Below, piece after piece: positions 11,191 through 43,708 of a stretch of 64,000 bases of DNA. Under the pieces are notes generated by a model, which was not told the DNA's origin, did no database searches, and worked only from the letters and a program-made list of their open reading frames with translations. Location: the NCBI GenBank assembly GCA_025602905.1, contig JAHLKI010000042.1, positions 110,846-174,845 on the forward strand, given 5' to 3'. The position numbers and the translations under genes were made by a program. The stretch comes from Phlyctochytrium arcticum (Eukaryota; Chytridiomycota; Chytridiomycetes; Chytridiales; Chytridiaceae). The first letter of the stretch is position 1, and every line of letters starts with the position of its first letter.

Positions 11191-11250
11191 TGTGATAGTG
11201 CACTTAAAATCCCATAGTATATACTATGGGATTTTAAGTGCACTATCACA
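11191..11250. repeat. Perfect 60-bp terminal palindrome, left end
   Basis: The two 30-base arms are exact reverse complements (TGTGATAGTGCACTTAAAAT onward to CATAGTAT, then back), so either strand could fold into a hairpin with almost no loop. The matching right-end palindrome has a different middle segment (CTTAAA here against TAACCAA) yet is equally perfect. Confidence 0.97.
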
Positions 11251-11548
11251 GGGGAGATTCCAACTATGGGCCAACTATGCGGCAACTATGTGCCACTTTA
11301 CACCGGACTTTACACCGTGTAATACGCTCATATACGGGACTTCCAGAAAATTCACAAATTTCTTCTGTCAAAATTTCACACCTTACAAGTCGGCGAAGAA
11401 TATTCTTCGCCCCATTTACAAGTCTTCACCGGTGTAATATGCTCATTACACCGTGTAATACGCTCATTTACGGGACTTTCAATTTGTTACAACGATTTAT
11501 TACAACGATTTATTACAACGATTTATTACAACGATTTATTACAAGCCT

Positions 11549-11890
11549 TTACTCCAATCTTGTCCTTTTTGGCAGTGATTCTTGGGCTTCCTCCAATTCC
11601 TCTACTGAAACATTTCTCATCCATACAACTGACGGCTTCATATGGGCGTCTCGTATATCCATTGGTAAAGACCGCACATCCACTCGGTTCATTTTTCGAA
11701 TGTTGAAGAATAATGTCTTCATTTTATTCCCATCCTTTATTGACACCTTGGTTATTTCGAAATTCTTCATCTCTTCCTTGATAAAATCCAGAGCCGCTGT
11801 ATGCTTCTTCACGATTCTATCCGCTGCTTTGAATTCCTCCGATATGTCCAAATTGATAAAGTCCAGTACTCGTTGTTCCAATCGCTCCAT
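11549..11890 (-). CDS. TIR-encoded 113-aa protein, left copy
   Basis: A small acidic/basic helical protein that starts MERLEQRVLDFINLD and ends SLPKRTRLE. It contains a likely helix-rich N-terminal half (AADRIVKKHTAALDFIKEEM) and a C-terminal part with SVVWMRNVSVEELEE. No family is recognised. It is encoded within the TIR and transcribed outward, towards the element tip. The copy at 43020-43361 encodes an identical protein, so selection, gene conversion or recency has kept both the same. Positions of start and stop agree in both copies. An upstream stretch (11900-12000) contains GATATCGATAT motifs. Confidence 0.7.
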   Translation of the reverse strand: MERLEQRVLDFINLDISEEFKAADRIVKKHTAALDFIKEEMKNFEITKVSIKDGNKMKTLFFNIRKMNRVDVRSLPMDIRDAHMKPSVVWMRNVSVEELEEAQESLPKRTRLE

Positions 11891-12348
11891 CTTTCTCGAG
11901 TGGTGATGATTCTGATTCGGATAATTCGGATAATGGAGCGGCCTCCCTACGGGACTTTCAATCCTTTATAACATTCTCTGTTATCGATATCCATTCTGAA
12001 TTCATTTCTGGATAAGACATATCGATATCGATGTCATCCCAAAAAAAAGGTGACACTTTTCGTGACACTTTTTTTTACTCCACGTCTCGAGTCAGAGACA
12101 CTTCCTATTATCTATTTCCCTCCACTTTACATGTAGGTGACAGTTGTGACAGTTTTTTCGAGGTAAAGTCCCTGGGGATATAGTTTTTAGACTAGTGAGA
12201 AGAAGAATATCCATTATTCTTTCTCTCACTCAAAATAAAATTTTATAAGAATCATAAACATACAAAAAAACTGTCACAACTGTCACCTTTTTTTTTACTC
12301 CATAGAAACACACCACTAATCTATTATAAACTTTCACTTTCCCTACAT

Positions 12349-12568
12349 AAGGGCCCCGGGCTGCGCTGCGGGGATTAGCTCTGGTATATGATGGTTAATG
12401 CAATGCTAACGGGGGAATGGAGTGTACGAGGAAGTTATCATATTAGCGAAAATAAACGAACAGACATGAGCGAACAAATTGTCCAGAAAAACGTCATAAC
12501 AAGTAATACAAACTTGAAGCAAGGAAAGTTATAAAACGATGCAGAATGGCACTGTCAAACTAAGGAGG
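12349..12568. other. Junction between left TIR and element body
   Basis: Homology with the right TIR stops at 12348. It is followed by a GC-rich palindromic stretch (GGGCCCCGGGCTGCGCTGCGGGG, positions 12350-12372) that resembles the hairpin found near Helitron termini. No CTRR end could be fixed next to it. Confidence 0.4.
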
Positions 12569-13528
12569 CTAATCATAATAATTGCGCAGGCGGTTGTGGG
12601 TTGAGAGAGGGGCGTCGTCGTCGTCGTCGTCTGATTCATGATCGAGCTGCACGACAGGCGACGGGTTATTGGAGCTCCTAGCCATGGAGAAACTGTCGTA
12701 AAGCTTTCGAGCCTTGGCAGGCGGGGTATCCGGGGTATCGTAAACGTCGGCAACAGCAGCAACTTTGGACTTGGGAGGCCGACCACGCCGTTTGCCGCTG
12801 GCAGTTAGGGTTGACTTCGGGGCTGGGGGTAAGGGGTGTATGACTGGTTGGGGCTCCGATTGAACCAAGAAGATGGTGCGCGATGGGGGGGTGGCAACTC
12901 CAGAGGACGACGAACTTGGCGAAGAGAGAGAGGTGGAAGAGGTTGCGGTTGCAACCGGCCCGGTAGGCTTCCGGCCCCAAATGTTCGCAGCTTTAGAGGA
13001 AACAGCGGTGGTTGAGGTTGAGGGCAGCTTTCCGGTGCCGCCGTTAGTATAAAAGTTGGTGAAGGCGATTTCCCCGAGAGAAATCAGCTCACCGACCACC
13101 TCGACAACGGTATTTTGGCGGAGAACATTGGCTCTTGGTCCCCAACCTCCGGGATGGGTAACTGTGACGGGCCTGAAGGACTCAACGTTGTTTCGATAGA
13201 CGCGGAATAACACCTTAGCGGACTCCTTCTGCGTGGAGTGTACGAGTCCGGTGCAACAAACTTGTGCAGGGAAAGGTTCAGCATCGTCGTGGAGGCGGTG
13301 GAGAGTACAGATTTGTAATTCGTCAGTTGTAGGATCGAGGACCGCGGCAACACAGAAGTAGCAGGCATCGAGGACAGGTTCTTCGATACGGTTTTGCTTA
13401 ACCCACACGGATGCGGGGAGATGGAGTATGTCGCCACCTACGATGGGGACCACGAGTTGGACATCGAACTTGTACTTGTCCAACGGAGTAAGCTCGACGA
13501 CTTTGACGATTGAAGTGATGATGAGCAT
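12569..13528 (-). CDS. Probable OB-fold/AT-hook protein beside the Helitron helicase
   Basis: A 319-aa single-exon protein. Residues ~1-170 are beta-rich (YKFDVQLVVPIVGGDILHLP, then ACYFCVAAVLDP, then VVEVVGELISLGEIAFTNFY) and could be an OB-fold single-strand-binding domain. This is followed by a Ser/Thr-rich linker, an AT-hook-like GKRRGRPPKS (residues ~245-255) and an acidic run of six Asp near the C-terminus. It is divergently oriented, ~0.9 kb upstream of the Rep-helicase gene. Helitrons often carry RPA-like OB-fold genes, which supports the reading, but the fold is inferred from pattern only. Confidence 0.5.
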   Translation of the reverse strand: MLIITSIVKVVELTPLDKYKFDVQLVVPIVGGDILHLPASVWVKQNRIEEPVLDACYFCVAAVLDPTTDELQICTLHRLHDDAEPFPAQVCCTGLVHSTQKESAKVLFRVYRNNVESFRPVTVTHPGGWGPRANVLRQNTVVEVVGELISLGEIAFTNFYTNGGTGKLPSTSTTAVSSKAANIWGRKPTGPVATATSSTSLSSPSSSSSGVATPPSRTIFLVQSEPQPVIHPLPPAPKSTLTASGKRRGRPPKSKVAAVADVYDTPDTPPAKARKLYDSFSMARSSNNPSPVVQLDHESDDDDDDAPLSTHNRLRNYYD

Positions 13529-14418
13529 TATGATGGCGTTGACGGTATGGAAGAGGGAGAAGGGAGTTTGGAATGGCGCTCTTTATGTAGTGAGAGAGGG
13601 AGAGGGGCGGAGATAGCAGAATCGGTTTGAACGACCTACAAAGCCCAATGGGTAAGAAGGGAAATGCAATGTTTGGCCAAGGTCGCTATGTCCAATCTAT
13701 TATTGGGGAGGACATGTGAGCACAAACATGAACAAACAGCACAGAACGGTCTGGAATGGAGCGGATCCTCATAAGATAGAGGCCATTACAGCCTTCGGCC
13801 AATGGTCCCATTGTAGGCAGGAGGGGAAATGCAAGTTTTGCAAAGGTTACATTGTCGACTGATCTTAATTGAAACGAAAGTGACTATTTACGGCAAGAGC
13901 CACGGATGCAAATTAAGGTTGTTTTTCGTCACAAATAATGAAGCAAACAAGTAACAAGCAGCAAAATATGGTAAGATAAACCTTAAAAAAATGGCAGGTA
14001 CGAGCTGGAACACCAGAGAACATGAATAAGATCGAATATATAAGAGGAATATAAATATGAATGCCCTTGTGGAGTACTGTAAGATTGGAAGAGGTACAGA
14101 AAGGCCCCATAATTGATACAATTGACATAAGTAGCTGTTATTGCAAGGACGATACAGTGAAGACAACGTAATAAACAATAAGTAAATCGGTTAAGCAGAA
14201 TGCCGCGGAAGCCCAAGGCACGCGCGCAAAGGAACAATCCAATGTGAGAGTAGTACATGTAAGCAAGATCCACATCATAGCAGCTAAATGAGTATGATGT
14301 TAGTTCGCGTCCTTCAGAAGAGGAATGTGCGCGGCATCGTCTGCATCGAAATCAGGCGCGACAAAGGCAACGTAAGAACCATGCACCCCAATTTTACACC
14401 CCCGATGAACTGGCGACA
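13529..14418. other. Intergenic region between OB-like gene and Helitron helicase
   Basis: No gene is supported. Two diverged copies of a short segment containing GGGAAATGCAA (about 13635-13715 and 13795-13870) lie between the divergent genes and could hold their promoters. Confidence 0.5.
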
Positions 14419-17400
14419 ATGGAGGATAACCCCATCCTCGGCCCAATAACATCAGAAACCTTGAAGAGGGTGTACAAAGACACAAAGGCGGCGATGTCGG
14501 ATGCCAATATGTATGAAGAAGTATGCGCAGTTTGCGGGGCACTGGCCACTCAGTCGCATATCACGAAGATATCACTGCAGTCACCACATGTTCCAATCAG
14601 TGCGATGCGTTCTCGACTACGCTGCCCGGAAGATGTCCCACAACGACTCGCAGATGAATATGATGTCAGCGATTTAGACACGCGGTTCACAGGAATTATG
14701 CTATCACGCAGCGGTTTCTCCTCCAATGGATCCGCAGGAACGTCCGATATGAAGATGCACTTCTGCCACCCGTGCCTGGAATCTTTACAGCGTCCAGCGG
14801 AAACACCACCACGCTTTGCCATTGCGAATGGGAACTTTGTGGGATCCCTGCCGGAGGAACTCTTCGAGCGAGCGACAATGGTTGATTTCAGCATGGCGGC
14901 CCCTGCGCAGTGCGCGCATTACATTGCAGTCGTTTACGGAGGAAGTTTTAATAGATTGAAAGGACACTCGTATGCAATGTTGGCCGATCCTGCACCCCCA
15001 GCACTTCTTCTTCCCAGAGATATGGCACCGACCGGAGACATATTCGTTACGACTGTTGGTGCGTTCACCAAGGAAGAGTCGATCCGTGTCGCAAAGGAGT
15101 ATCGCGGTGATCGGGAGACCATATACTCTCTCCTATCATTCTATAAAGAGCACAACAGAATATACGAGCACATCACGGTCGACAGCTCCTTACCGGATAA
15201 GGTCTTTGAGGAAGCCACCATCATCACCAATATTTCGAAAGACGACCCGGAGTACGCTGAGATATCAGCAACTCTACAAGCGTCTACCAGTACTCATCGC
15301 GTGCCTTCAACACCTGAAAGTGAAAACTACGTGAGCGCGGAAGTCCAAATGGAAAGCGAAACATCACTTATCATCCAAAGTCGAACGGACGAAAGCAATG
15401 GAACCCAAGTAAAACGAGTAATTCAGCTCCTTGTGGATCATCAGGACCCCAACCGTGTACTCATGAAAAGGTCAACAACGTTTGTATCAGACGACGACCC
15501 CGAATCCTGGTACTTGCGGATCCCGGAACTTCTGTCATACGGTCGAGGAGGACCAAGTGAAAGACGAAAGAATCCGATATCCCTCGAAGAATGGATAGCC
15601 TATGTACTCAGGCTTCCCAAGCAGCGATTTGCCAAGCATCCAGCATTCATATTGATGGCATTCAACATTGCGGCAAGGACGCGAGCTCGATCGTCAGTAT
15701 ATCTCCGATGTCGTTTGTCGCCCAAAACGGCCGAATTAGCAGCTACAGTTACGGTGGAGGAAATCCAACGCTACGCCGAACGGGAAGCAGCGAGGACGGA
15801 AGCTGCCAGGCGCTCCTTGCCGGTGGCAAATGTAGCACCCGTGGGCGCAGGAGTTTTGGCGTTGCAGAATGGTGTTCAGGCTGGCATGAGTTCGTACTGG
15901 GGTTCTAATGAAGAGCGAGTCGCCGCCATGAATCGTTTGAACGCGTACACGAATACGCTGGGTCTACCGAACATTTTCTTCACCGTCACACCTGACTCAA
16001 TGAATTCTTTTCGGGTTGTGCAGTATAGCCAGTACGAAGGTGCAGACAGGGCGGTGTCGGGAATCAATAAGCGCATTAAAGCAATGTCACGAGAGGAACG
16101 GAAGGCGGAGGTTGGCAAGAACCCAATGGCGGTCGCAAGGCACTTCGAACGCGTCATTGATGTCATTATTTCTGAATTCCTGGGATGGGATACTGCGAAG
16201 CAACAGCCGAAACGAGGCGGAGGGGCTTTAGGGGTGATAAAGGCGTTTTCGGGAGCAGTGGAGACGCAAGGGTCTGGAAATCTTCATGCCCATTTCTTAC
16301 TATGGGTATATAATCTTCCCTCAACGACGCAGCGATACATGGCACTAGCCAGCGGCCCAACAGCATCAATAAGCCTTCAGCAAATAGCGGATTATGCCGC
16401 ATCTGTGGTCAGCAGCACATCACCGATTCCACTACATCCTTTCTGTCCTTCATGCACGTCACCGCTCGAGTTCCAACCAATTCCACTACGAGCATATCGT
16501 CGGGCGCGTGCGAACTGGTCGGCACCGGTATCAGCAATATGTGTCGGGTGCGGGGAAAGTATGTCGGATAGCGATGTAGCAAGCAACTCTGCTGAATATT
16601 TTGCGACACGGAGCGGCATTTTGAGCGTGGATCTGTGGACACAGACGGATGTTGATTATGCAAACTGCACTTGGGATCCTGTTCCATTAGAGTCTATTAT
16701 TGAACCACGATGTGCAAAAGATGTACTCAACTTTGAGAAGAGTCTGTTCGCGTATCAAGAGCATTCGTGGAAACACGCTCGGAGTTGCTACAAAAAGAGT
16801 GTCCGCACCCCCAGTGGTACCTATTGTCGGTTCTTGAAACCAGAGAACCCAGTTGCCAGCACGCAAGTTTCAGCCATGACAGTCTCATTTCAACGCCAGA
16901 ATGGGTCGCTGTATTTGAACAACTACAATCCATTGTTTGCCGGCACGTTTCGTTTTAACCACGACATACGCCTGTTGCTGGGAGGGGAAGCGGCCGATAT
17001 CAAGCAGTATGTCCTTAAATACACGTATAAACCACAAGTTCAATTCGAAAAGATTCACACAATCTACTTATCTGCGCATCGCAAAAGTCAGCAACGGGAG
17101 AACAACTCCGTGGATGGTGAAGAGACTCCTGCATGGACCAAAGGGTTTCGTCGAATGAAACGGCAGGTCACGGAATTGACCGGCAAGATGGAAGTGACGT
17201 CCACGATGGCAGCGCTCTATCTTCTCCGGAAGTCGGCATTCTACGAGTCGCACGATGTTGAAAACCTGTACATAAAATCGATCATTAACGCAATGACACT
17301 TGAGGGAGAAGTAGATGTGGTCTTTGGGCGGGGAGCTGATGGCGCGGACGATGAAGATGCGGGCATCGGTGAAGAAGAAAGCATGGGAGATAACAGTATA

Positions 17401-20010
17401 GGCCCCGCGAAGAAATTGATAGCCGTCAACAAAGGGAGCGACTACTTGGGCCGACCTGCATCCAACGACTTTGAGAGTATGTGTCTATACTCCTTCACTG
17501 CCGAGTACATGAAACGTAAGACCAAGAACGTGGCAGGAACGCACGAGTTCATACAAGGGCACCCACAACGGAGATCGCACCGATTGGAGAAGCGCAAGAA
17601 GACGGTGTTTGTCAATGTAGTTACCAAGCGAATAGCTGATTTGACAAGGGATGATGTGACCGAGACCGAACGTGAGCGCACGTTCCAAATACTTCTGTTT
17701 CTCTTCAAACCGTATCGGACGCTAGCGTGTTTGAAGACTTCCAGCAGCTGGGAACAATCATTTTACGACTATACGGCACTTGACGACGGTTCCGCCAACT
17801 TTTTAGCGCTAGGACGATTCCTGCGCAACACGGAGGACCACTACCTCGGTAAAAGACGTGCAGCGGAGCAGGGGCGTCGCAACAGAGAGGCCGAATTGCG
17901 CGAAAACCATCCCGAACTTCCCGTGATATTGAGGACATCAGACGAAACGGAATGCATGGATGGGGATGACAGCGTCTCGGAGACATCGGACACGTCCAGT
18001 GAGGCGAGTTACGAAGATTTTTACCCAGAGGACGACGAGGAACCCATGACGGATTTGAGGGACGTGCCTTGCACTCAAGAAGCCATGGCGTTCGCTACAA
18101 CATTGGGATCGGTACCGACGTGGCAAACAGAGATCGGGCATGTCAGCAATCTTCACGAATTTGATGCAGCGGCCAACGAGGTGGAACATCCCGTCACTAC
18201 GGAGAACGCCATGCCTGACCGACGGGCACGAATTTATGCACTGTTTCCAACGATGGCGACTCAAATTGAACACTATGAATGCTGCTTGGGAGATTCGGAA
18301 TGGAGAGAGGCGCATGCAAACTCGCCCAACGCACAGGTGGACGAATTCCCAACCATTGCACAAGTATCGCAACATTTCGGATTGACCAAAGAGCAGCACC
18401 GTATCTTCGTTCTGTTTGCGGCAGGCTTGATATTCGCATTTGCAGCAGAAGATGATGTGTCTCTAAGCAAATCGAGAGGGACCAACGGCAGTTCATGTCG
18501 TGTGACAGCATCTATGTGGGGGCAGGCAGGTACCGGCAAAAGCTTTATTCTCAAAGCACTTCTTCACTTGGCAAGAAGCTGGGGGCGGCCTGATGCAGTG
18601 ATGACAACTGCACCGACAGGGATGGCAGGCGCAAACGCGGGGGGAGTACATCTACACAAAATGTTTAACTGGACTACCATATGTACACGTCGCACACGAG
18701 TCACTCCTACCGAAATACTCCGATTTGCACCTTTGAAATTACTGATTGTTGATGAGACAACACTTCTCAGTAAGCAGTATGTCGCGTTGCTAGAAGAAAC
18801 CCTGAAGATGGTGATGGATAAACCGCACTTGGAGATGGGTGGAGTGTCGATACTTATCTGTGGGGATTGGTACCAGTTATCAGCATGGTCAGGAACTAAA
18901 CTATACACCCGATTGAAGGCTTCGGATGCAGCCAGAATAGCAACGGGCCATCGGATATATCACGGAATTCGTAATGTCTTCTTTTTGACCCGGAACATGC
19001 GACAAGGCGCACAAACTCCGTATGCGAAACTGATGACCAACATGCGAACCGGTCACTTAAGCAAGGACGACATAGCACTGCTTAACGGACAAGTGTTGAC
19101 GCCAGGAGAACGACCAATTGTGAATGATACGGAGCTTTTTCGACCAATTCTTACAACAGCCAACTTCCATCGCGTTGCATTTAACAGGGGTTGCATAGAG
19201 AAATTCGCGCTCGGACGGCAGGAGGTCGTGTATCGATTCAGCGCTGTCGTAAAAGCAACGCGAAAAGGAAATGTGACGGCAGAAGAGAGGTGGAGTTTGC
19301 GAAAGTTGCCAGATACATCAACAGGTTCATTGGCCATGACGCTGGATCTGTGTGTTGGAGCTCCGGTGCAAATCACTAAGAACGTGGATCACAGAAGAAA
19401 ATTGCTGAATGGAGCGCTCGGTACGGTAGTAAAAATTCAGTTAAACGATGCGGGCACATTGACAGAGTCGACACTTGGTAACGGAACACGCCTTTTGATC
19501 TCCGACAAATTGCCGGACATAGTTTTCGTGGCGCTGAAAAATCACGAAAATGTTCAACTACAACCAGGTCTACCGCGCGGCGTAGTGGGGATCCGTCCGT
19601 TTCAAGCAACCAGTGCAGTGCAAGTGAAGCTACCCCACCGCAGTTTCAAGATTCGCATCACCCAGCTGCCTTTTGTGTTAGCGTTTTCTTTGACTGTCGA
19701 CAAAATCCAAGGACTTACCGTACCTGGCGTCGTATTAGCACCGCTACTGACACCACTTCGGAAAAGTCCGCAGCGCGCCTCTATGTACGTTGGTTGGTCA
19801 CGGGGAACGACACTGGAAGGACCCATGGCGACTCGAATATTACAGCCGCTGACTGCTGCCGACATAGAATACTTCAAACCAAGTCCCGAAATTGTCAAAG
19901 AGCTAGAGCGATTAAAACGACTAGCAGGTCAGACGGACGTTAGGATGGAACAGTTTGTACGCACTGCCAGCACAAAAGAGAGTTTCATCGAACTGTTCGG
20001 GGATGACTAG
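14419..20010 (+). CDS. Helitron Rep-helicase (RepHel)
   Basis: A single 1,863-aa frame with no stops, encoding the rolling-circle transposition protein of a Helitron. In order it has: a Cys/His region (CAVCGALATQSH ... FCHPCLESL) and DUF6570-like N-terminus; a Helitron_like_N Rep domain with TNTLGLPNIFFTVTPD, then the HUH motif GSGNLHAHFLLW (~residue 620) and the two-tyrosine motif QYVLKYTYK (Tyr ~864 and ~868); and a Pif1-like SF1 helicase with Walker A GQAGTGKSF (~1368), Walker B LLIVDETTLLS (~1442), GDWYQLSA, FFLTRNMRQ, VDKIQGLT and YVGWSRGT. All key residues are present, so the protein is potentially active. The start is the first ATG of the frame. The ends of the Helitron itself are not resolved. 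Confidence 0.96.
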   Translation: MEDNPILGPITSETLKRVYKDTKAAMSDANMYEEVCAVCGALATQSHITKISLQSPHVPISAMRSRLRCPEDVPQRLADEYDVSDLDTRFTGIMLSRSGFSSNGSAGTSDMKMHFCHPCLESLQRPAETPPRFAIANGNFVGSLPEELFERATMVDFSMAAPAQCAHYIAVVYGGSFNRLKGHSYAMLADPAPPALLLPRDMAPTGDIFVTTVGAFTKEESIRVAKEYRGDRETIYSLLSFYKEHNRIYEHITVDSSLPDKVFEEATIITNISKDDPEYAEISATLQASTSTHRVPSTPESENYVSAEVQMESETSLIIQSRTDESNGTQVKRVIQLLVDHQDPNRVLMKRSTTFVSDDDPESWYLRIPELLSYGRGGPSERRKNPISLEEWIAYVLRLPKQRFAKHPAFILMAFNIAARTRARSSVYLRCRLSPKTAELAATVTVEEIQRYAEREAARTEAARRSLPVANVAPVGAGVLALQNGVQAGMSSYWGSNEERVAAMNRLNAYTNTLGLPNIFFTVTPDSMNSFRVVQYSQYEGADRAVSGINKRIKAMSREERKAEVGKNPMAVARHFERVIDVIISEFLGWDTAKQQPKRGGGALGVIKAFSGAVETQGSGNLHAHFLLWVYNLPSTTQRYMALASGPTASISLQQIADYAASVVSSTSPIPLHPFCPSCTSPLEFQPIPLRAYRRARANWSAPVSAICVGCGESMSDSDVASNSAEYFATRSGILSVDLWTQTDVDYANCTWDPVPLESIIEPRCAKDVLNFEKSLFAYQEHSWKHARSCYKKSVRTPSGTYCRFLKPENPVASTQVSAMTVSFQRQNGSLYLNNYNPLFAGTFRFNHDIRLLLGGEAADIKQYVLKYTYKPQVQFEKIHTIYLSAHRKSQQRENNSVDGEETPAWTKGFRRMKRQVTELTGKMEVTSTMAALYLLRKSAFYESHDVENLYIKSIINAMTLEGEVDVVFGRGADGADDEDAGIGEEESMGDNSIGPAKKLIAVNKGSDYLGRPASNDFESMCLYSFTAEYMKRKTKNVAGTHEFIQGHPQRRSHRLEKRKKTVFVNVVTKRIADLTRDDVTETERERTFQILLFLFKPYRTLACLKTSSSWEQSFYDYTALDDGSANFLALGRFLRNTEDHYLGKRRAAEQGRRNREAELRENHPELPVILRTSDETECMDGDDSVSETSDTSSEASYEDFYPEDDEEPMTDLRDVPCTQEAMAFATTLGSVPTWQTEIGHVSNLHEFDAAANEVEHPVTTENAMPDRRARIYALFPTMATQIEHYECCLGDSEWREAHANSPNAQVDEFPTIAQVSQHFGLTKEQHRIFVLFAAGLIFAFAAEDDVSLSKSRGTNGSSCRVTASMWGQAGTGKSFILKALLHLARSWGRPDAVMTTAPTGMAGANAGGVHLHKMFNWTTICTRRTRVTPTEILRFAPLKLLIVDETTLLSKQYVALLEETLKMVMDKPHLEMGGVSILICGDWYQLSAWSGTKLYTRLKASDAARIATGHRIYHGIRNVFFLTRNMRQGAQTPYAKLMTNMRTGHLSKDDIALLNGQVLTPGERPIVNDTELFRPILTTANFHRVAFNRGCIEKFALGRQEVVYRFSAVVKATRKGNVTAEERWSLRKLPDTSTGSLAMTLDLCVGAPVQITKNVDHRRKLLNGALGTVVKIQLNDAGTLTESTLGNGTRLLISDKLPDIVFVALKNHENVQLQPGLPRGVVGIRPFQATSAVQVKLPHRSFKIRITQLPFVLAFSLTVDKIQGLTVPGVVLAPLLTPLRKSPQRASMYVGWSRGTTLEGPMATRILQPLTAADIEYFKPSPEIVKELERLKRLAGQTDVRMEQFVRTASTKESFIELFGDD

Positions 20011-20130
20011 TAGAACTCATGTAATATAGAAGTAGTTTCAATCAGATTTTTATTCTTGGAAGGTACAAGTAGCACTGTGGGTCACTCTATGGTAAAGTAC
20101 CTAAAAAAGTTGTATTGGTCAGACCTTCGC

Positions 20131-20243
20131 GCAAGTGGATATTGAAGGACGCGATGGAATACTTACAGGATAACAGACAAGTTGTATTATCGCCCAAGTG
20201 GATATTAAAGGACGCGATGGAATCCTTACAGGATAACAGACAA
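20131..20243. repeat. Two-copy direct repeat after the Helitron helicase
   Basis: A ~50-bp segment containing CAAGTGGATATT and GGACGCGATGGAAT occurs at 20131-20180 and again at 20193-20243 with a few substitutions. It lies 120 bp past the helicase stop and may be part of the element terminus or a local duplication. Confidence 0.7.
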
Positions 20244-20685
20244 CGACCAGCGGGAAAGGAAAGTGAGGTATGATATCAAGGATCGCTCACAACGCACCAA
20301 CATTGAACGGGACCGGCACCGTGAAGATTCATCGCAAAAGGCACGAGCAAAAACGGTGGCAGTGAGGTGGACCGTGCTTACGTAAGCAAAATTTGAGGAA
20401 CTCTGCTCCGGACTCAGCTGAGAAAATCCCACGCGCGTTTGAAAATTATTTGAGCACACTATGATGCTGACCACCCAAGGAAAATCATATGGGATGCAAG
20501 AGAAAAAAATGACCGATTTTCCGAATGTCTTAAAAAATTTCAGCTCGTAGGAAAAAGCGTGGGATCTGGAGAAAATGCAATTTGATCTACGAAAAAACAA
20601 AAGAAATACCCCCATTCTCCATGGAAACAAGGGTCTGGGGTGACTGGGCCAGGGGCGTTTCAAAGGCGACACTTGGTGGTGCCCC

Positions 20686-20755
20686 AGACCCCTCTAAGAC
20701 TCTGGTATATACCAGAGAACAGACCCCTCTAAGACTCTGGTATATACCAGAGAAC
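20686..20755. repeat. Tandem 35-bp repeats, each with an 18-bp palindrome
   Basis: Two identical 35-bp units (20686-20720, 20721-20755) each contain CTCTGGTATATACCAGAG, a perfect palindrome. The central GTATATAC is also the centre of the terminal palindromes of the giant element. It sits ~100 bp before an orphan gene. Confidence 0.95.
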
Positions 20756-29993: not shown

Positions 29994-30261
29994 TTTGGTG
30001 TTGTTTGAGAGGAAAGTGTGTGGATTTTGAGATGGAGATGGATGAGAGATGATGTCGCGAAATGGGTGTAAAACGCGCGACAGGCTCAACTTGAGGTCCT
30101 TTTTTCAAGTTGTGCTGCGCAGCTCAAGTCTGGCGATTTTACTAGTAAACTAAAGCTACACCAAATGGAGGGGCCTGTGACACCTGGATTCAAACCGGTG
30201 TAACGTTCAAGACTTGAGGCTCAACTTGAGCCTCAATTCTGATTTTGAAACCCCCTATTGT

Positions 30262-30311: not shown

Positions 30312-30372
30312 TGCCGCGATGTTGTGTGGATTGTATAAATCAAATGTATTGTGATCTTTCCTATGTAAATGA

Positions 30373-32983: not shown

Positions 32984-34846
32984 TCACGACAAATTCAGAA
33001 TCAATGGTGCATCATGGCCAAATACAAACTGGCACGACGAGAAATCTCCGGGAGCAAAGAATACCGAAAGTCGATGTTCGTAACGGTCAACTCTTGCCGA
33101 GAATGAACCCTGCCGAAAGTCAACAACAACATAATCGTTCACACGAAGCGGATGGTACGGTCCTGAAGGAGAAAATCGGTCCATATGCTTGCCGCTTTTA
33201 TCCCCTTTCCTCAAAAGTTCGACTCCCCAGCGCAACTGCCCATTCAAATAAAAATCGATTGCGCCCGCAATTCGCTCACTTGGCTCCTCGCCACGCTCAG
33301 GAAATACGGTCGACAACTCGGGACATATTGCGCACGATGGTGGTGTAGATGCGGCAAGGGATTGCATGAAAAGATGTTGAAACGTGGCCTCCTTTAGAAA
33401 ATCAACGCCACCAGGTGAAGATGAACGAAGGATTGCGCTTGACATGTCAGAAATAGCCTGCTTCATCAACACTTTCAAATTAGCCGGGGCGCTGGGAGAC
33501 CTTTTTGGGAAAAGCCACCGGCAATAGTATCGTTTTGCTAATGGAGAAGAGAAAGCAAACTTAATACTTCCAACTTCGACAAGCAGTCCAACCTTCATCA
33601 AGAGGGACAGGTGATCTGTAGTCTTATCGTCTTCAAATGTCGGTTTCTCTAAATCGTCCGGGCAGATTAAACACTGCTGCAGAAACGTTCTCAAGCCTGA
33701 ATCCACTGGAGCCGACTGTTTACTGCCGAAACATCGATTCACCTCAGGAAGAAAATCTTGTGAAAAATAGTACTGCACTATATTCGTTTCCGGCGGCGGC
33801 AGCGCATTCTTCACGAATCGCTGTTTTATAGCATCAATAGAAAGGCGGACTGCAGCAATCAGTCCGTTGCTTTCGTTGATAATGATGTTCTCAATCAGTT
33901 GAGTTCCGTAGCCATTGGGAAGACCAAAAGGTGGCGGTGCTCTTAGCATGTCAAGAGCCTCCTGCGAGGAAATTCGGAAATCTTCCCGCTTCAGCCGTCT
34001 AAGTGATGCCAACTCAACAGGACTTTCTTGCTGGCCCTCCAGCAGATGTGTTGCAGACGCGGAAATTTAACGATAACATCCTTAACTAGAGATGCCCACG
34101 CTTTAATGTTGTTGTACGTTGCTTGAGCATCATCCAGCCATATAAGGTAGTGGCTGGTAGCGTCCAATAGATACTCATGGCGTCCATCGAAAAGTTTGCC
34201 TCCCCCCAGAGCAGAAACAAACGTTTCGAAGTTGAAACCCGATGCTAGACACGAAACGCGAACGCAGTTCTCCCTTTCTCGCGAAAGCAATTGAAAAAGG
34301 GAAGTCTTTCACGAGCCGGCCGGCGATGCTACGACCACAACCTGATTGTCGTTGAGTAGTTGATTAAGTTCAGTCAACAATGGAATACGATGAAGGTAAA
34401 AGCCGTTCAAGTTGACGCCATCGAGTGTGACGGTCCGGTCGATGGTTGCTGTATTGCGTCGTACTGAAGGACAGAAGTGTATGCGTTAGAATGCTATTGT
34501 CTGTAATTGCAATCCTTCCCTTACCACTCGTTGTCGGCTGAACTCGCTCCGGCACCACAATCAGCAGCGGGTTCTCCTCAGTGTCCTTCAGCGTATCTAC
34601 TTTGCCGCGTGGGTCAATAAAGTGCTTGGGTTCGGGTTCGTCTTTGTCGGCCTTGAGTGCTTCTACGTTGGCGTAGACGAGGAGTTCTCCAGCGGCTACT
34701 CCGTGCATACGCTGGGAGTCCTTCCAGTTCTGCCAAATGGCGTCCCGGAAGTGAAAGACCTTCTTGTTCTTTTCGAGAGAAACAGCGTCAACTGTTGAGA
34801 CGGGATTTCCTTTCGCATCAACCAACTGATAGTAGAAGTCTTCCAT
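32984..34846 (-). pseudogene. Crinkler (CRN) 3, NTPase plus nuclease, broken
   Basis: Exons 34846-34525 (header; MEDFYYQ start, or 18 bases upstream) and 34463-32984, with a phase-1 intron at 34464-34524 again placed just after the header. The second exon is homologous along its length to Crinkler 1: Walker B region LIWLDDAQ, a middle region, then the nuclease pattern GAIDFYLNGQLRWGVELLRKG. Two defects are visible. A TGA at 34309-34311 replaces a P-loop glycine codon inside Walker A, and one base is missing in the AAATTT run near 34061-34068. The product would end before the lysine of Walker A. The first half of the header differs from the other Crinklers while its second half is almost identical in DNA, showing a mosaic origin. 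Confidence 0.88.
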
Positions 34847-34864
34847 GGTGATGCTGGATGTCAC

Positions 34865-35533
34865 CGGCGATGTCTCCCAGGACGGACCTCCCAGATATGG
34901 TTAAATGAAGTATAGTCTTTACCCGAAGTTTTTTTTTCTTTCAAGTTTGTATATGAGATTTCTCCCGACTGGCCCGGGATTGCAGTAACGATTTTTAACA
35001 AGTATTTGAAGATGATTTTGTATATGAAGTTCATATGGAAATGATATACAATTTTGTCTTTATCATGTAACATCTGATGTCTTGACCCCCACCTTTTCCA
35101 CAAAGATGTCTCTAACTTTTTTCGCACATCGCCTCGGCGGCTGAAACGTTGAATAGTTGCTGAATATACATATATAAGTCATCTGCCAAGCGGGTTGCTT
35201 CAACACGAAGGTGTTTACGAAGTTCTGGGGCAGGTAAGATCCCCAATAGATAGTATTGATGGGGCAAAGAATGAAATTGTGTTGATACATGATGGTGAAA
35301 CAGAAGAAGAGGGCTGAAAAGTGCTGAAATAAAGGGGACAGATTAAAGTATTTATAAAAGAGTGACAGATTGTGAATGTGAAAGGATGTAAGGGTAGAGA
35401 GAAAGAGATAATGCTTGAAGAATGACCGACCAAATGTGAGGTGGTTGAAGCAGAGGAGTGATGACTTTGAGATCTGGAAGTATCTTTTGTTCAGGAAATG
35501 TGGGAAAGGTAGTTTACAAAGGTAATTCTCACC
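34865..35533. other. Intergenic region
   Basis: Nothing recognisable; AT-rich, with short unlikely frames. It holds the upstream region of Crinkler 3 and the 3' flank of the next gene. Confidence 0.5.
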
Positions 35534-38429
35534 TCATTCTTCGTCATCGCCATCATCGTCTTCCAACTCGACTTCTCCAGATGTGCAAGCCAAATTGGTG
35601 ACCCAACTTTTCCAATGCTTTACGCAAATCTCTTGCATGAGATGCTCACACGGATCTTGCTGGAAAGAATCGCAATGACAGGCGGGAATGATTTTAGAAA
35701 CTGGAGAGTCGACGGTTAGCCACTCTATCTTATCCGGCTTGACTTTTGAAGCGCTCGCGTTTGGCTTCGGCGTAATGTCGCCCAGCGGCTGGCGGTCTTC
35801 AAGGTTCGGGGCATTGGGAGTATTGTCGGCGACTGGTTGGCGGGGTTGGCGGTCTTCGGGCTGCTTGACAAAATCATAGGCACGGTATTCCTCCAGCTTC
35901 GTGATGGAACCAAGGTTTAAATCCGCACTCCAAAAAGGCAAAGGCAGAATTCTCTCTGAGATAAATGCCAAGACCCCAGGAGCCGGTTTTACGAAAGAAA
36001 AAGTTCCATTCTCTTTCCTCCGCTTAGGAGGACTAGCCTCCATGGCGTCGGTGAGACTGTGATCACTCATCAGCTGGTAACCCGGCACGAGCTTTTGCGA
36101 GGCCGAGTGTTGCTTCTCCTTACTGCCTTGAATTGAAAAGCTCCCGTCGACCGCCATGACTCGCTCGAATATTTTGGTGACATACGTGGCCATGGTGGCG
36201 AGCTGTTCATTGTAATAGGTTGCGCGTCCACTTGCTGCGGTACCCCGCGATGCATCGCTGGCAGGAAAGGAGCCCATGAGATGCGAGTGGGCGATGCGCC
36301 TTTCCTTCTCCAGCTTGTTCTGCTTCGCTGCTTCCGCTAAAAACGCGGATGCCCCAATGTCGGATACAGCGGTAATGAACATCGTGTTTACAACAGCGGA
36401 GTTTTCCGAATCATACGGTCTCAAGGCGGCACGAATAACGGAGTGGAAGACTTCCAGATCTTCCGAGCTTGCCCAGGGGAGGAAGCTGCGGAGGGCTCTC
36501 AAAACCTCCTCCTTTTTCATACCCTTGAAGTAATGAAGGTTGCCGAGAATGTATAGGATGATGTTGACATAATTCTTTTTCCCGTATCTGATAAAGAATG
36601 GGAGGAGACGCTTGCAAACATCACGGTATTTTCCCATATCACCAGATGCCATAACATTGCCGGCGTCAAGTGCCATAGGTAGGTCCTCGTCGAAACCGCG
36701 CAGCAATGCCTCTACAAAAGTTCGCTGCACATCTGTCATTTGGTCTTTGCGTGCTTCATACAGTGCCTTCATCTCTTGACGACATTCATTCCAAGCCAAA
36801 AAAATCATCGAGAGAAGCATCACCCGCCTTTCCGGCCTCATTTTAACCACCGAGACAGTGAAATTTGGGAAAGCGGAACCCCAAATGGGCATAAAGAGCC
36901 CAAAGTTCCAAAGAATCAAAGCTATAGACGCTCGGTTAATAATTTGTCAGACCATAAGTCAGTTACCACAAACCTTGCTGTGCATTGAGGGCGATATGCA
37001 TGCCGTCCGGCCACGCGAGCAACGCTGTCCGGAGACTCCGCCCTGGCTGCCCCCAAATGACCTTGAGGACATTGACCCACACGTAGTAGTCCCCTACTAC
37101 CCACGTGCATCCGTTTGGGTATTCTCTGACAAAATCCATCATGAGTTGGACCAGAGTTTGGACATCCTGCCAGGTCTTCATCTTATTGGGGACGGCAGCG
37201 AAAATTTTGAAATCTTTCAATTGCGCCGCTTTTGTTGAAAGGTCGAATTGATAAAGTGTTCGAAATTTTCGGTCATCCAAAGACTCCAAAAAGTGGTCAA
37301 CATAGTTGAGTGATGATGAGTATTGAGTGGATGAGGGCAACGAAGCCAGAACAAAGTCTTCAGCATCAGTTTTGGTGGGATCCGACATGACACTGAAGTC
37401 GATGTAAGGCTGTTCTGGTCTTGGGAGTGGGGCAAGGGTTTCACCAAAGTTTTCAGAGACATTCGGTGGAGCCTTCTGATAGAATTTGACAGCCAGGTTA
37501 GCCTGGGTGTATGCTTCTGAGAACTTGGAAGTGTTCGCTGATCCCGGGCTTCCTCGAACGCGAACGCGATTAAAATCGTCAAGTTTGAGAATGATCACTT
37601 CCGCACCGCTAGCGACTCTAGCCTCCAAGTCGACCTTGCTCTGATCCACGGTAACTATCATCTTTTTCCGCCAGTGCCTTGGTGCAAATGACAGGTTCAG
37701 TGCAGACAACAGCTCCTTGTCTGTGTCAGTGAGAGATTCGCAGGTGGTGAGAACGTGCTGTTTGACATAATTAATTGAGGATGTATGGTCTAGCAAGCTA
37801 GCAGCCTGCATTGCGATCGCCACCATGATCACGCGCCTTCGTCTACCCAAATCTGTTTTCCATGAAGAGGCCTCAAACCCGAGAAAAGTCGCCATCTTGG
37901 TTGCCAGTTGGTCACAGTTCGAGTCGAGATGATCGATAAACTCCTCCAGACTGGCTGCAAACGGCATTGGAGAGGTGAAAGGGTTTTCGCGTAATAACTT
38001 TGTGGATTCTTTGATGTTGATGGGTTTGGGTTTGGGGGTGGGGGTGGGAGTTGGGAGTGTTGCGACAATGGTAATGGGAGGAGTATCAGTTTGTGTACCG
38101 GCATCAGTGTGGTGGCTCACAGCAGGCTCGTCCTCCACCAATGTCCTTCTTCCGAATCTTTCAGGATGCTGCTCAGCAAAGCTCTTGAAGCATCTGTTAC
38201 AGAAGACTGCTTGAAGAATCCAATTCTCCTTGCTATCATAATGCAGCTTCGATCCATGCGATTGTAAAAAGGCAATATCCGAAAGATCACGAACGTAGAA
38301 GTTCCCAGATTCTTTGCACCGACACTTCATACATCCAGCAGCATATAGCACTACCCGCTGTGATTTCCTCTTCACCCTCTTCAGTTCACAGACTCGCGGA
38401 CTATCGAGAATCGCGTCGGTGTCGCTCAT
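35534..38429 (-). CDS. DUF6589-like large fungal protein, function unknown
   Basis: Two exons (38429-36974 and 36921-35534) with a 52-bp phase-1 intron (36922-36973) yield about 947 aa. The N-terminus has a Cys-rich, probably zinc-binding region (GCMKCRCKESGNFYVRDL ... VFCNRCFKSF). A TPTPTPKPKP linker follows, then a helical region. The central part contains VIILKLDDFNRVRVRG and CTWVVGDYYVWVNVLKVIWG, then WPDGMHIALNAQQ running across the intron. Acidic residues spaced like this recall the DUF6589 family of transposon-associated fungal proteins and could form an RNase-H-like active site; that is a guess. The C-terminus has CHCDSFQQDPCEHLMQEICV, possibly another zinc site. Undamaged, and without homology to the secondary transposons, so a candidate core gene of the giant element. 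Confidence 0.6.
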
Positions 38430-38848
38430 CTTGACTTGCAGCCTGAGGCTTTCGCATACACCGTATGGGCTTGACCTTCGATTCCGAGTTAGAATATAGG
38501 CCCAAAAACAATCTGTGTGAATGCCAATACTTATCTCCAGCTGGCCTCTTGCTCAGGAGCAGCAAAAAAAGAAGGGAAATAATAGCCAATCATGTTCGTT
38601 TGGCACGATGTAACCATTACAAAATGGCGCCAAAGAAGCTTGTACCACAAATGAATCTGATACTCATACTTCTTGTTCAGCGAAATGTCGCGCCGGTAGG
38701 CCATCTTTTGGAGCTTTCCAGTAGCAGCATGCTGGTCAAAGATTCTGGAGAGTGCTTTTGACGCTGGCGGAGATCGCGTATTACCTCAGCAGCGCAGCGC
38801 AATTATTTCCTTTTTAGTACAGGGTTGATTTAACTAAAGCTGGGAGGT
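38430..38848. other. Intergenic region before MULE 2
   Basis: Upstream region of the DUF6589-like gene. No other gene is supported. Confidence 0.5.
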
Positions 38849-38856
38849 CCGCCCTG

Positions 38857-41343
38857 GGGAGCGTCTCGGGCGAGGTAATATCCGGTTCCAATCGCTCAGA
38901 CAACCAAGCCACCTCCGGACCGACAGCTCGGTAACAACGTCCAGACCAAGGAATTCGAAATACAAGTTCACAACATATATTGCCAACCAAAAAGTTTAAA
39001 CTATCTATTCGCTCTTCTATCTTCTATTTCTAGTGCCATTTCCAAACTTGGGTTGTAGTCTGACTAGTATAGCCTTCTAATTGAGCTAAGAATCGTTCCA
39101 TCATCGCTTCAAAAATGGGGTTTGCTTCAAGGTGGTCCTCGAGCTTGAAATGGAAGCTTTGAAGTTGCTCCACAGCTGCCTTTACGCGGGTTTTGCGGTG
39201 GTTCTTCTTGACCTGCGCCGGAGTCACCACAATTTCCCTGACAGGCGCCGTTCCTCGGCCCCAATAAAGCTCAAATCCCGATTCTTCAAAATCTCCAATA
39301 AACCTTTCCCACGCGGCGTCGGTGAAAATGGTCTCCTCCGCGCACATGTCTTGGTGAAAGAGATGGACACACGGGAGCATATACTGGCGGGCAAACATGC
39401 AATTGCAGTCGAGGTTGTCGATTTGGGGCACTGGCTTACCCTTTTCGATGCGAACGGCGACCATCATAATCTGATCGACCACAAGACGTTGTAATGGATG
39501 CGGTAACTTTGCTAGAGCAGGATACTGGGCAGTGTGAGTCAAGCGCTTACGGCGGAACGTGTAATCTTGCTGTGCCGCGTTTTTAGCGTAGCGCTCGTTG
39601 ACATTCACAATAGTTTTGACCGCCCCACAAAGTGTAGCAGTTGGCTTGCCAACATCCTTTAATTGCTTGTGGTAGGACTCGAGAGCGTTGGTCGAGGTTA
39701 TCTGCAGGAGCACTGGCGAATGCTGCCTTGCACCCATCGACCAACATTCAAGATGATCCGTGTTGGTCCAGTTTCTTTTAAGATATGTCGCCATATGTGC
39801 AGGAGCTCCGGCGATTGCTTCGTCGACCAATTGACGGCAACCGAGGCGGGTCCTCTTATTAAGAGCATGCATCATCTTGGCGTATGTCGCACGGTGACTG
39901 GTCAAATGCTTCATAAACGTACGCATGACGTGAACCTGGAATAGTGAGCGTCAGTCTCTCTCCTCGTTAGCCTCTTTCCTGAATGCCACATTAAACAAGG
40001 AAAAAGCATGCCAAACCTTGCAATAATAAATACGGGGTGTTTCTTCACCAGCTGCCATGCCTGGAAAAGCCTTCCGGATGCCAAGGTTCTCAATATGAGA
40101 TTGGTCAATCATCACATTGTTTGGAATCCACTTCTTTCCAGTTTCAGCGAGAACAAGATTTCGCAAGGCATTAAGCCCAGAGTACACACCCTCGCCGTTT
40201 TCACGCTGAGCAAAAAATTGTCCGGCTGGAACCCAAGACCCTGTTTTATTCCGCACCATGCACGTAAATAGCCTCCAGTCCCAGCGGTTCGTCTTGTGGG
40301 TGGAATCCATCAACACAAGATAAATACATTCCTGCAGTACCTTCAATTCTTCTTTTCTGCCAAATGCTAATCCTTCAGTGGCACCAATTTCGTCAGTAGG
40401 GGCAACAAGAAAGCGCTGGGTGACATATCCAGCCTTTTGTAGTTCTTGTTCTGCCTCAACTACATCTGGATCCTGAATTTGCGATTCGGGGTTTGTTTTG
40501 AATTCAGGGTCTCTTCTTTTGGCATTCCAGACAGTTTTAGCTGTCAAAAGATCGACACCCAGTGTCGCGAAATATTGTGGGTCAAATTCCTTGGCAACCA
40601 TTACAGGTAAGACGCCTGCGATTTCCTTGGACTGGTAGGGCTTGAAAGCCTCGCTATTGATGATCTCCTGTGCAGCAGCGCATATTTTGCGTCGATCGAC
40701 GTCTTCCAATGTATGGTGTAAGTGCTTTGTTCCATACTGCGGCTGAAGGTCGACCGAAACCATGGCGGTCTGAGTATCCTCCACAACGCGCAATCCAACG
40801 GGACAATCTATAGGAATGTGAGTCGAAGTTACTCGTCTCTTGATTGAGCCAGTATCATCTTCACGGGGTCCCGAAGAATGAGGCTGTCGCTTCGCTGCCA
40901 TTCGACAGGTGTATATTGTCGTGACTTTAACGGACCTTCTCGTGCCGGCTGATGCTTTCTTGTTGAGTCTAGTCCACATGTTATCCGCCACTTGCCACTG
41001 CTCATCAAACTCTTTCTTGGTCAGTGTAAACTTTGCAGCGGGTTGGTAAAGTCGTTCTCGGACTTCTTTGAGGAGTAAACTGGACTGGGTCATTTTCTTG
41101 AAACAATTGGTTAAATAACAGACCAAAGGCATGTGTTGCTGTAACGTTACCTATGCACAGGACTATTGGCGAATTGTACAATTGCGATGTATCGTGAGAT
41201 CTTAAGAGGCAATGTGTGTCGGAGTCGCTTCGCGCACTTTGAAATTCGCGCACTTTGAAATTTTCGTTTGTTTAGATCTGACCGAGAGGTCGGCTTGTCT
41301 CCCGGCGATTGGAACCGGATATTACCTCGCCCGAGACGCTCCC
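38857..41343 (-). mobile_element. MULE DNA transposon 2, complete
   Basis: 2,487 bp with TIRs beginning GGGAGCGTCTCGGGCGAGG and matching through GTAATATCCGGTTCCAATCGC. Flanked by the direct repeat CCGCCCTG (38849-38856 and 41344-41351); the G/C run allows the duplication to be read as 8-10 bp. It contains one transposase gene and is inserted inside the giant element. Confidence 0.9.
39030..41132 (-). CDS. MULE transposase with SWIM zinc finger
   Basis: Exons 41132-40017 and 39935-39030, joined by an 81-bp intron (39936-40016), give about 673 aa. The intron was placed so that the conserved Cys-Lys-x-His-Val motif is restored (YYCK then VHVMRTF). Catalytic aspartates are in LVLMDSTHKTNRW and NVMIDQSHIENL. 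A SWIM-type zinc finger, CNCMFARQYMLPCVH, lies near the C-terminus. It is a different lineage from MULE 1, lacking the FAR1-like domain and zinc knuckle. An alternative start, MTQSSLL, is 13 codons downstream. No frame breaks. Confidence 0.93.
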
Positions 41344-41819: not shown

Positions 41820-42075
41820 TCATTTACATAGGAAAGATCACAATACATTTTCTCGTAATAGGATGCATCGGAAAGGAGAAAAAATCGTAAAGTTTCGCCA
41901 TAGGATGCATCGGAAACGAGAAAACATCGGAAAAAATCATCGGTTTAGCAAAAGTCGTTTAAAAGGAGATTAGAGTAAGAAAAAGGTGTTTTAGACACAA
42001 AAAGGCAAAAATGAGAGATTTAACATATGAAAAGTGCCAAACTGCGATGTAAAAGCCGCGAAAATCAATTGTTTC

Positions 42076-42152
42076 AAAAGTGGGTAACGGAACGTTTATA
42101 CGGGGGAACCCTTTAAGAGTACGGCGTTATAAACGTTCCGTTACCCACTTTT
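42076..42152. repeat. Long hairpin with 25-bp perfect arms
   Basis: AAAAGTGGGTAACGGAACGT and five more bases at 42076-42100 pair exactly with 42128-42152, around a 27-base spacer. It lies in the non-coding interval between chromodomain copy 3 and the right TIR. Confidence 0.9.
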
Positions 42153-43019
42153 TGTCGTTCCAGTAAAATGGAGGGAGTCAGATATGTTCCAGGGTAGTTT
42201 GCTCGAAGAATGGAGAGAAAGCAGAAACGGTATTTAGACATATTACAATTGCTAGTTGTTTATAGAGTTTTGTTATCATTCTTTTAACAATTCGCGCCCC
42301 TAGGTCGTTATCGTCTACTATTATAGCAAACCGCATTAACTTAATATATTGCAACAAAAGAAACGGTATTTCGCAAGAAACAAATTTTACAAAGAACTCC
42401 GAGCGGTGGTGCCGGAGAAACGAACAAATTCGGCTCGATACTTTGTAGGTATATTATTGAAGAAGTGATTGAATCGGGGATTGATGAAGAGGGGTGACAG
42501 TTTTGTGGAAAAGGTGACAGTTTTTGTGACAGTTTTTTTTTGTACCTGACACACTCGATACATGTAGGGAAAGTGAAAGTTTATAATAGATTAGTGGTGT
42601 GTTTCTATGGAGTAAAAAAAAAGGTGACAGTTGTGACAGTTTTTTTGTATGTTTATGATTCTTATAAAATTTTATTTTGAGTGAGAGAAAGAATAATGGA
42701 TATTCTTCTTCTCACTAGTCTAAAAACTATATCCCCAGGGACTTTACCTCGAAAAAACTGTCACAACTGTCACCTACATGTAAAGTGGAGGGAAATAGAT
42801 AATAGGAAGTGTCTCTGACTCGAGACGTGGAGTAAAAAAAAGTGTCACGAAAAGTGTCACCTTTTTTTTGGGATGACATCGATATCGATATGTCTTATCC
42901 AGAAATGAATTCAGAATGGATATCGATAACAGAGAATGTTATAAAGGATTGAAAGTCCCGTAGGGAGGCCGCTCCATTATCCGAATTATCCGAATCAGAA
43001 TCATCACCACTCGAGAAAG

Positions 43020-43361
43020 ATGGAGCGATTGGAACAACGAGTACTGGACTTTATCAATTTGGACATATCGGAGGAATTCAAAGCAGCGGATAGAATCGTG
43101 AAGAAGCATACAGCGGCTCTGGATTTTATCAAGGAAGAGATGAAGAATTTCGAAATAACCAAGGTGTCAATAAAGGATGGGAATAAAATGAAGACATTAT
43201 TCTTCAACATTCGAAAAATGAACCGAGTGGATGTGCGGTCTTTACCAATGGATATACGAGACGCCCATATGAAGCCGTCAGTTGTATGGATGAGAAATGT
43301 TTCAGTAGAGGAATTGGAGGAAGCCCAAGAATCACTGCCAAAAAGGACAAGATTGGAGTAA
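43020..43361 (+). CDS. TIR-encoded 113-aa protein, right copy
   Basis: Protein identical to that of 11549-11890, transcribed outward to the right end. Short, charged and helix-rich, without a recognised domain. A gene inside terminal repeats is unusual for cut-and-paste transposons, and better known from large linear DNA viruses and plasmids. It may encode an end-binding factor, but nothing in the sequence proves this. Confidence 0.7.
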   Translation: MERLEQRVLDFINLDISEEFKAADRIVKKHTAALDFIKEEMKNFEITKVSIKDGNKMKTLFFNIRKMNRVDVRSLPMDIRDAHMKPSVVWMRNVSVEELEEAQESLPKRTRLE

Positions 43362-43646
43362 AGGCTTTTAATAAATCGTTGTAATAAATCGTTGTAATAA
43401 ATCGTTGTAACAAATTGAAAGTCCCGTAAATGAGCGTATTACACGGTGTAATGAGCGTATTACACCGGTGAAGACTTGTAAATGGGGCGAAGAATATTCT
43501 TCGCCGACTTGTAAGGTGTGAAATTTTGACAGAAGAAATTTGTGAATTTTCTGGAAGTCCCGTACACAGCGTATTACACGGTGTAAAGCCCGGTGTAAAG
43601 TCCGGTGTAATGTGGCCCATAGTTGGCCCATAGTTGGAATCTCCCC

Positions 43647-43708
43647 TGTGATAGTGCATAACCAAATCCCATAGTATATACTATGGGATTTGGTTATGCA
43701 CTATCACA
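43647..43708. repeat. Perfect 62-bp terminal palindrome, right end
   Basis: Arms of 31 bases (TGTGATAGTGCATAACCAAA onward) are exact reverse complements. The outer 12 and inner 12 bases equal those of the left palindrome; the middle segment differs. Confidence 0.97.

Follow-up and report, generated by a model that had tools for sequence, protein, structure and literature searches.

A probable capsid-less Polinton-like virus derivative with Crinkler-type genes lies within a Crypton gene of Phlyctochytrium arcticum

We analyzed a 64,000-nucleotide stretch of DNA (bases 110846 to 174845 of contig C42; the window) from the soil-dwelling chytrid fungus Phlyctochytrium arcticum, whose assembled genome comprises 31.5 Mb in 91 contigs. 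Positions 11191 to 43708 of the window hold a 32.5-kb element that is bounded by terminal inverted repeats (TIRs), carries Crinkler-type genes, and interrupts a Crypton gene. As argued below, this element is probably a capsid-less, integrase-truncated derivative of a Polinton-like (chytrid MELD) virus that was integrated by the rve-type integrase of a co-resident virus. Its borders and target are as follows (the basis of each assignment is in parentheses; ORF, open reading frame).

9072..11190, + strand: Crypton gene (target), 5′ part (NDC10_II match; full-length copies elsewhere)
11186..11190, no strand: left target duplication, GCCAT (sequence; empty sites)
11191..12348, + strand: left TIR, shortened by a nested Helitron (TIR alignments)
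11191..11250, no strand: perfect terminal palindrome, 60 bp (sequence)
11549..11890, − strand: 113-amino-acid ORF in the TIR, left copy (ORF comparison)
42562..43708, − strand: right TIR (TIR alignments; sister arms homologous as far as about 42377)
43020..43361, + strand: 113-amino-acid ORF in the TIR, right copy (ORF comparison)
43647..43708, no strand: perfect terminal palindrome, 62 bp (sequence)
43709..43713, no strand: right target duplication, GCCAT (sequence; empty sites)
43714..44455, + strand: Crypton gene, 3′ part with GCR1_C (GCR1_C match; joined-flank comparison)

The two flanks are halves of one Crypton gene. The left half matched NDC10_II at an E value of 9e-9 and the right half matched GCR1_C at 1.2e-15, and when the genome was searched with each half separately, the two overlapped by five bases in Crypton copies elsewhere. 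Once joined, the flanks matched across the exact junction in five of the seven copies tested (L042, L043, L044, L046, and L047), and the uninterrupted site in these five held a single GCCAT; L045 matched the joined flanks but lacked the exact string at the junction, and only part of the sequence is present in L048. The reading frame crossed the junction unbroken in all three uninterrupted copies that we inspected. Judged from the assembled letters, such a comparison with empty sites is the best test possible without reads. A first-pass annotation of the window had proposed a discrete TIR element with precisely defined ends, flanked by a 5-bp duplication and lying between the halves of one Crypton gene whose frame continues over the junction, and it had named as possible support other copies with the same ends, different 5-bp duplications, or an empty Crypton allele. 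The structure was confirmed, empty sites were found, and other elements had other duplications (CAGAA, CTGAC, and CATAG, described below). Its view that the insertion was recent found looser support: the Crypton flanks are 98.2 to 99.4% like other genome copies, which sets an age limit for the Crypton copy only and not for the insertion, and the identity of the TIR arms is no tested clock here.

The arms themselves are 97% identical over 1,164 alignment columns and 100% identical across 854 nt. The same annotation had put the TIRs at about 1.15 kb; the pair stands, and the length does not. The left arm ends at 12348 because the nested Helitron starts there, and homology of the right arm to sister arms continues to about 42377, so that 1.15 kb is a lower bound. 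Each terminal palindrome has its own core, and such ends may derive from hairpin-ended replication or hairpin-ended linear DNA. The two core types were found again at the ends of other elements. The 113-amino-acid protein encoded in the TIRs was free of stops in 15 of 17 copies, both C4b copies having one. Its ratio of nonsynonymous to synonymous substitution (dN/dS) was 0.2 to 0.3 against the two most divergent copies analyzed and was uninformative among close copies; 11 of the 17 copies were used, since four aligned over fewer than 95 residues and two contained a stop.

Related TIRs are abundant in this genome, and some of them bound viruses. The TIR query gave at least 132 genome matches (40 of 78 candidates were scored), and this and all other genome-wide match lists are lower bounds. 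Four of the eight two-ended elements inspected for target duplications were flanked by them, all different: GCCAT (the window element), CAGAA (C4b, 50.5 kb), CTGAC (C32, 8.6 kb), and CATAG (C3, 39 kb). The elements end in TGTGATAGTGC or TGTCATAGTGC. Sister elements with related TIRs encode a double-jelly-roll capsid, an A32-type packaging ATPase, a D5 primase-helicase, and an rve integrase, and they are endogenous Polinton-like (chytrid MELD) viruses. The capsid is a predicted one, its double-jelly-roll fold having been obtained solely from a structure model. PDB sequence searches with this protein and with a 549-amino-acid neighbor yielded nothing useful; an early guess that the neighbor was the capsid was abandoned. 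Scans of IMG/VR gave no match for the capsid, the Crinkler NTPase part, or p310 (a backbone protein considered below), and a single distant locus, at 26%, for D5.

One sister, C4a, has ends related to those of the window element and an intact-looking rve integrase, and seven of the eight full-length integrases in the genome (at least 400 residues, no stop) have a capsid match no more than 9 kb away. The D5 gene gave dN/dS values of 0.18 to 0.23 in all six pairs among C5, C1, C4a, and C3, the C1 and C3 pieces being partial. The genome as a whole contains 62 capsid matches, of which 26 are nearly full length and uninterrupted by a stop, so that this one fungus is heavily loaded with Polinton-like viruses. 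Two virus-type elements also have an ORF with a response-regulator receiver domain near one end (L026:7041-7514 and L028:5452-5871).

The interior of the window element contains the following features.

12349..20719, + strand: nested Helitron (copies at 99.4 to 99.6% within sister elements C3 and C4b)
14281..20010, + strand: Helitron Rep/PIF1 helicase ORF, 1,909 codons (ORF and domain matches)
21073..21714, + strand: p310-type gene, the backbone marker, a 214-codon ORF (310 in C5) (homology)
21805..22299, − strand: truncated rve integrase, about residues 103 to 251 of 453 (homology)
22714..23133, + strand: Crinkler-type header ORF 1 (genome homologues)
23146..24690, + strand: ORF with a P-loop NTPase-like part, Crinkler-type C terminus 1 (weak Pfam match)
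27139..30104: probable nested element with a Myb-like ORF (+) and a DDE_Tnp_4 transposase ORF (−) (domain matches)
30319..30890, no strand: repeat copy of segment 22242-22829 (window self-alignment)
30906..31259, + strand: Crinkler-type header fragment 2 (genome homologues)
31509..32315, + strand: HSDR_N-like nuclease ORF, Crinkler-type C terminus 2 (Pfam match below the curated cutoff)
32984..34066, − strand: NTPase/nuclease-like ORF, C terminus 3 (60% identity to ORF 23146-24690)
34373..34900, − strand: Crinkler-type header ORF 3 (genome homologues)
35534..38552, − strand: two ORFs, one weakly matching DUF6589 (Pfam)
39030..41150, − strand: MULE-like transposase ORFs, probably nested (Pfam, 27.4 bits; cutoff, 27.6)
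42220..42363, − strand: relic of a response-regulator-like virus gene (virus-protein search)
42376..42462, + strand: D5 relic, last 29 residues (virus-protein search)

When nine virus proteins were searched at an E value of ≤1e-3, the window gave no match to the capsid or the packaging ATPase, and the two relics listed above were its only matches. What remains of its integrase is the fragment listed above plus a few scattered pieces. Because capsid and ATPase are absent, we call the element a derivative and not a complete Polinton-like/MELD member, although it shares with three sisters the long TIRs and the 5- to 6-bp target duplication of such elements. Lacking D5 and a whole integrase, the window copy would be a passenger. 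The nested part at its left has Rep and PIF1 helicase in one ORF, as a Helitron does. Convincing ends were sought for the nested DDE_4 element and none were found.

The p310 gene ties the window element to other stripped elements, with which it shares a backbone consisting of p310 and a similarly truncated integrase. The clearest of these is the 9.1-kb C5 element, in which the order is TIR, D5, p310, integrase fragment, Crinkler header, nuclease-like ORF, and TIR. In the search with nine virus proteins, pieces of C5 matched D5 only, and pieces of the C1 element matched D5 and the two relics only. Genome-wide, 28 p310 matches were merged by hand into 17 loci, of which the C37 locus is a match of 27 residues. 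In 7 of the 17, a Crinkler-type header starts 1,000 to 1,077 bp downstream of p310 on the same strand (C42, 1,000 bp; C1, 1,004; C5, 1,068; C28, 1,006; C16, 1,077; C6, 1,058; C79, 1,055). Across these seven loci, p310 is 93 to 100% identical to that of the window, partly across short stretches, whereas the headers at the six loci outside the window are 54 to 76% identical to that of the window. Integrase fragments that begin at residues 104 to 109 were found on C42, C1, C5, C6, C16, C24, C28, C43, and C79; they mostly extend to residue 245 to 250, that of C5 to 217. The idea that the integrase is truncated at all p310 loci was not borne out by the list of fragments. At C30:322048-325854 and C58:59388-63136, a header and NTPase part sit directly beside longer, gapped integrase pieces (residues about 46 to 453), which may represent an earlier version of this gene order.

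The Crinkler label for the window headers and genes is a probable one, based on sequence resemblance. None of the three window headers matched the Pfam Crinkler model PF20147 at an E value of ≤5. The model matched three places in the genome. Two of these, on C45 and C58, exceed the Pfam cutoff and coincide with sequences that the window header matched at 69% and 54% identity, respectively. Support for the Crinkler genes of the first-pass annotation is indirect, coming from these homologues and not from the headers themselves. The HVLVVVP motif is said to close the Crinkler (CRN) N terminus in the accessible part of PMC5289972, and the window headers contain a similar motif, LLIVVPE. Two of the C termini had matches, one to nSTAND3 (E, 0.0057) and one to HSDR_N (E, 1.1e-4), but neither reached the curated cutoff; the third ORF had no match. 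A structure model of the header was too poor for use (mean pLDDT, 47.9).

Headers cluster near virus genes. The 65 header matches were merged to 62 loci for the p310 spacing, capsid, and integrase counts (three neighboring matches were dropped), and 64 headers were used for proximity to TIR or D5. Virus integrases, with matches to the chromodomain only excluded, lie within 2, 5, and 10 kb of 9, 18, and 24 of the 62 headers (expected, 0.5, 1.3, and 2.4). The corresponding control counts for Crypton genes were 0, 1, and 1 (expected, 0.1, 0.3, and 0.6), numbers so small that the control has little power. A TIR or D5 match lies within 15 kb of 13 of the 64 headers (expected, 2.3), and a capsid gene lies within 10 kb of 8 of the 62 (expected, 1.8), a count that remains 8 within 15 kb (expected, 2.6). 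The binomial values assume independent loci; because copies of one element are not independent, these values overstate the true significance. Header, capsid, and integrase matches occur together within about 10 kb at C25:400346-408010, C54:2196-9853, C5:1100341-1108663, and C7:985898-996206, and capsid-bearing elements may therefore carry Crinkler genes too.

The right half of the window element occurs a second time. Window positions 32573 to 44699 match C1:1539848-1551999 at 99.4%, and farther right, where the flank was compared through small pieces of window sequence, three pieces, the last at 59703 to 60102, match C1 at 99.8 to 100%. The C1 element has a different left end and is flanked by ACGAC where the window has GCCAT. 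Over the stretches compared (32573 to 60102), the left boundary of the duplication falls inside the element. Because the Crypton halves and the GCCAT copies on C42 all fit together, C42 appears to keep the original arrangement, and C1 appears to result from an exchange between two elements or from misassembly.

Taken together, these results are best read as a nonautonomous, putative satellite-like virus derivative that was integrated in trans. An rve-type integrase supplied by a co-resident virus element would act on the stripped element, and its integration into the Crypton gene would yield the TG...CA ends and the 5-bp duplication, both of which fit the rve integrase class. D5 and the TIR-encoded protein would provide replication functions, kept by relatives such as C5 and lost or half lost here; members that have D5 may still replicate. 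Growth to 32.5 kb would have come later, through the nested Helitron, DDE_4, and MULE elements and through repeats of Crinkler segments. What the Crinkler genes do is suggested weakly by the literature on the family (the accessible part of PMC5289972): most likely they would serve as nuclease weapons between elements, viruses, or cells.

Several observations weigh against this reading. Nine of the 17 p310 loci have no header at the fixed distance; in three of the nine (C43, C39, and one on C17), p310 lies within 0.6 kb of a contig end. At a further locus, on C17, the header is 1.6 kb off and on the opposite strand. The window copy has no D5, so its backbone is read from relatives, and its Crinkler identity is indirect because the headers miss the Pfam model and the C termini match below cutoff. 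Matching duplications were absent at four of the eight two-ended elements (C4a, C5, C1, and C6), one full-length integrase (C2:207732) has no capsid nearby, and neither an excised nor a packaged form was observed. Because C1 repeats the right half and its flank beside a different left end, the locus has been affected by recombination or misassembly. Finally, the element contains candidate movers of its own in its DDE_4 and MULE-type transposase ORFs.

Those ORFs (DDE_Tnp_4, 28704 to 30104; MULE-like, 39030 to 41150) would be expected of a self-contained giant TIR transposon that moves effector cargo with its own transposase in a Starship-like role, as the first-pass annotation had proposed. 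We consider this very unlikely. Among the other TIR elements that we compared, only the C1 copy of the right half gave a match to either gene, whereas an rve integrase, whole or fragmentary, was matched; the ends and duplication suit that enzyme; related TIRs bound virus elements with capsid, ATPase, D5, and integrase; and nested transposons fill part of the interior. Slightly harder still to credit is an artefact in which C42 joins two loci within repeats. The copy on C1 beside another left end would suit it, but the paired Crypton halves and GCCAT copies suit a single insertion, and five empty sites hold one GCCAT.

Two further explanations separate the Crinkler genes from the virus. Headers might belong to the host and lie in a repeat-rich compartment that is likewise favored by virus elements. 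Several headers do lie at contig ends (C16, C19, and C54), and without the window, C1, and C5 elements the count within 15 kb of TIR or D5 drops to 7 of 58 (expected, 2.1); in the window and C5, however, headers sit within TIR-bounded elements, and 18 of 62 are within 5 kb of an integrase (expected, 1.3), compared with 1 of 62 in the low-power Crypton control (expected, 0.3). We regard such regional clustering as unlikely. An ordinary decayed provirus on which host Crinkler genes and transposons landed by chance is a little less probable again: the copy is clearly decayed, with many nested insertions, and the virus-type sisters C3, C4a, and C4b have no header cluster, but chance would have to place a header at nearly the same distance from p310 at seven loci, with headers far more divergent than p310, and to account for an integrase truncation common to several of them.

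The virus derivative that we favor resembles, among known systems, the Polinton-like viruses of the S. punctatus group (described in the accessible part of PMC7805220) and the MELD viruses in its chytrid host and TIRs and, in sister elements, in the capsid, ATPase, helicase-primase, and integrase. According to the same text, some integrated Polinton-like members carry 5- to 7-bp duplications. The window element differs in lacking capsid and ATPase, in having a partial integrase, and in carrying Crinkler-type genes. Its probable likeness to CRN effectors (PMC5289972, accessible part) lies in the header, with its HVLVVVP-like end, in the putative NTPase and nuclease-like parts that come after it, and in interchangeable C termini; its headers, however, have diverged too far to be recognized by the Pfam model, and its genes are carried by a virus-derived element. 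A putative likeness to the phage satellites P4 and PICI is seen in pieces of C5 and C1, which matched no capsid among the nine proteins but retain a primase-helicase of the D5/P4 class, have end types in common with possible helpers, and harbor toxin-like genes; here, however, the host is eukaryotic, and the window copy has lost D5. Starships, too, are large cargo-bearing mobile DNA in fungi, but they have a tyrosine-recombinase captain, for which no Pfam match was found among the element ORFs scanned (10 + 6; small ORFs only in part), and the window element has long TIRs and virus-type ends.

We suggest tentatively, as a possibility that we do not favor, that a eukaryotic counterpart of phage satellites exists here, a small capsid-less lineage with Polinton-like TIRs and D5, a borrowed integrase and perhaps borrowed capsids, and exchangeable Crinkler-type toxins in one slot. 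Crinkler genes have been found in oomycetes, chytrids, and mycorrhizal fungi, and horizontal transfer versus old inheritance is debated (PMC5289972, accessible part). Secreted-toxin-like Crinkler genes on a probable virus derivative suggest one way in which such genes might travel, and their fixed place in virus-derived elements, with clustering near integrases and capsids, offers a concrete vehicle to test. If this is right, satellite-like elements could spread Crinkler genes among chytrids and other eukaryotes, and capsid-less, satellite-like forms would be added to the Polinton-like virus group. In Phytophthora parasitica, four CRN genes and many Polinton fragments share one contig with giant-virus insertions, and the accessible part of that report does not call the genes cargo (PMC8204020). 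A literature search, with most subscription papers outside its coverage, found no description of a capsid-less, Crinkler-carrying Polinton-like derivative and nothing evidently on satellite, capsid-less, or nonautonomous Polinton-like viruses.

Outside the element, inverted segments at 3406 to 5829 and 57701 to 60296, with a Skp1-family ORF, flank the region; they lie about 52 kb apart and are 99.6 to 99.8% identical. We considered this outer inverted repeat as a larger element and dropped the idea, the only other near-full copy being on C1. The ends of contigs C16, C17, C22, C39, C43, and C67 are no more than about 4 kb from matches to the TIR, D5, or p310, and assembly breaks thus seem to coincide with these elements.

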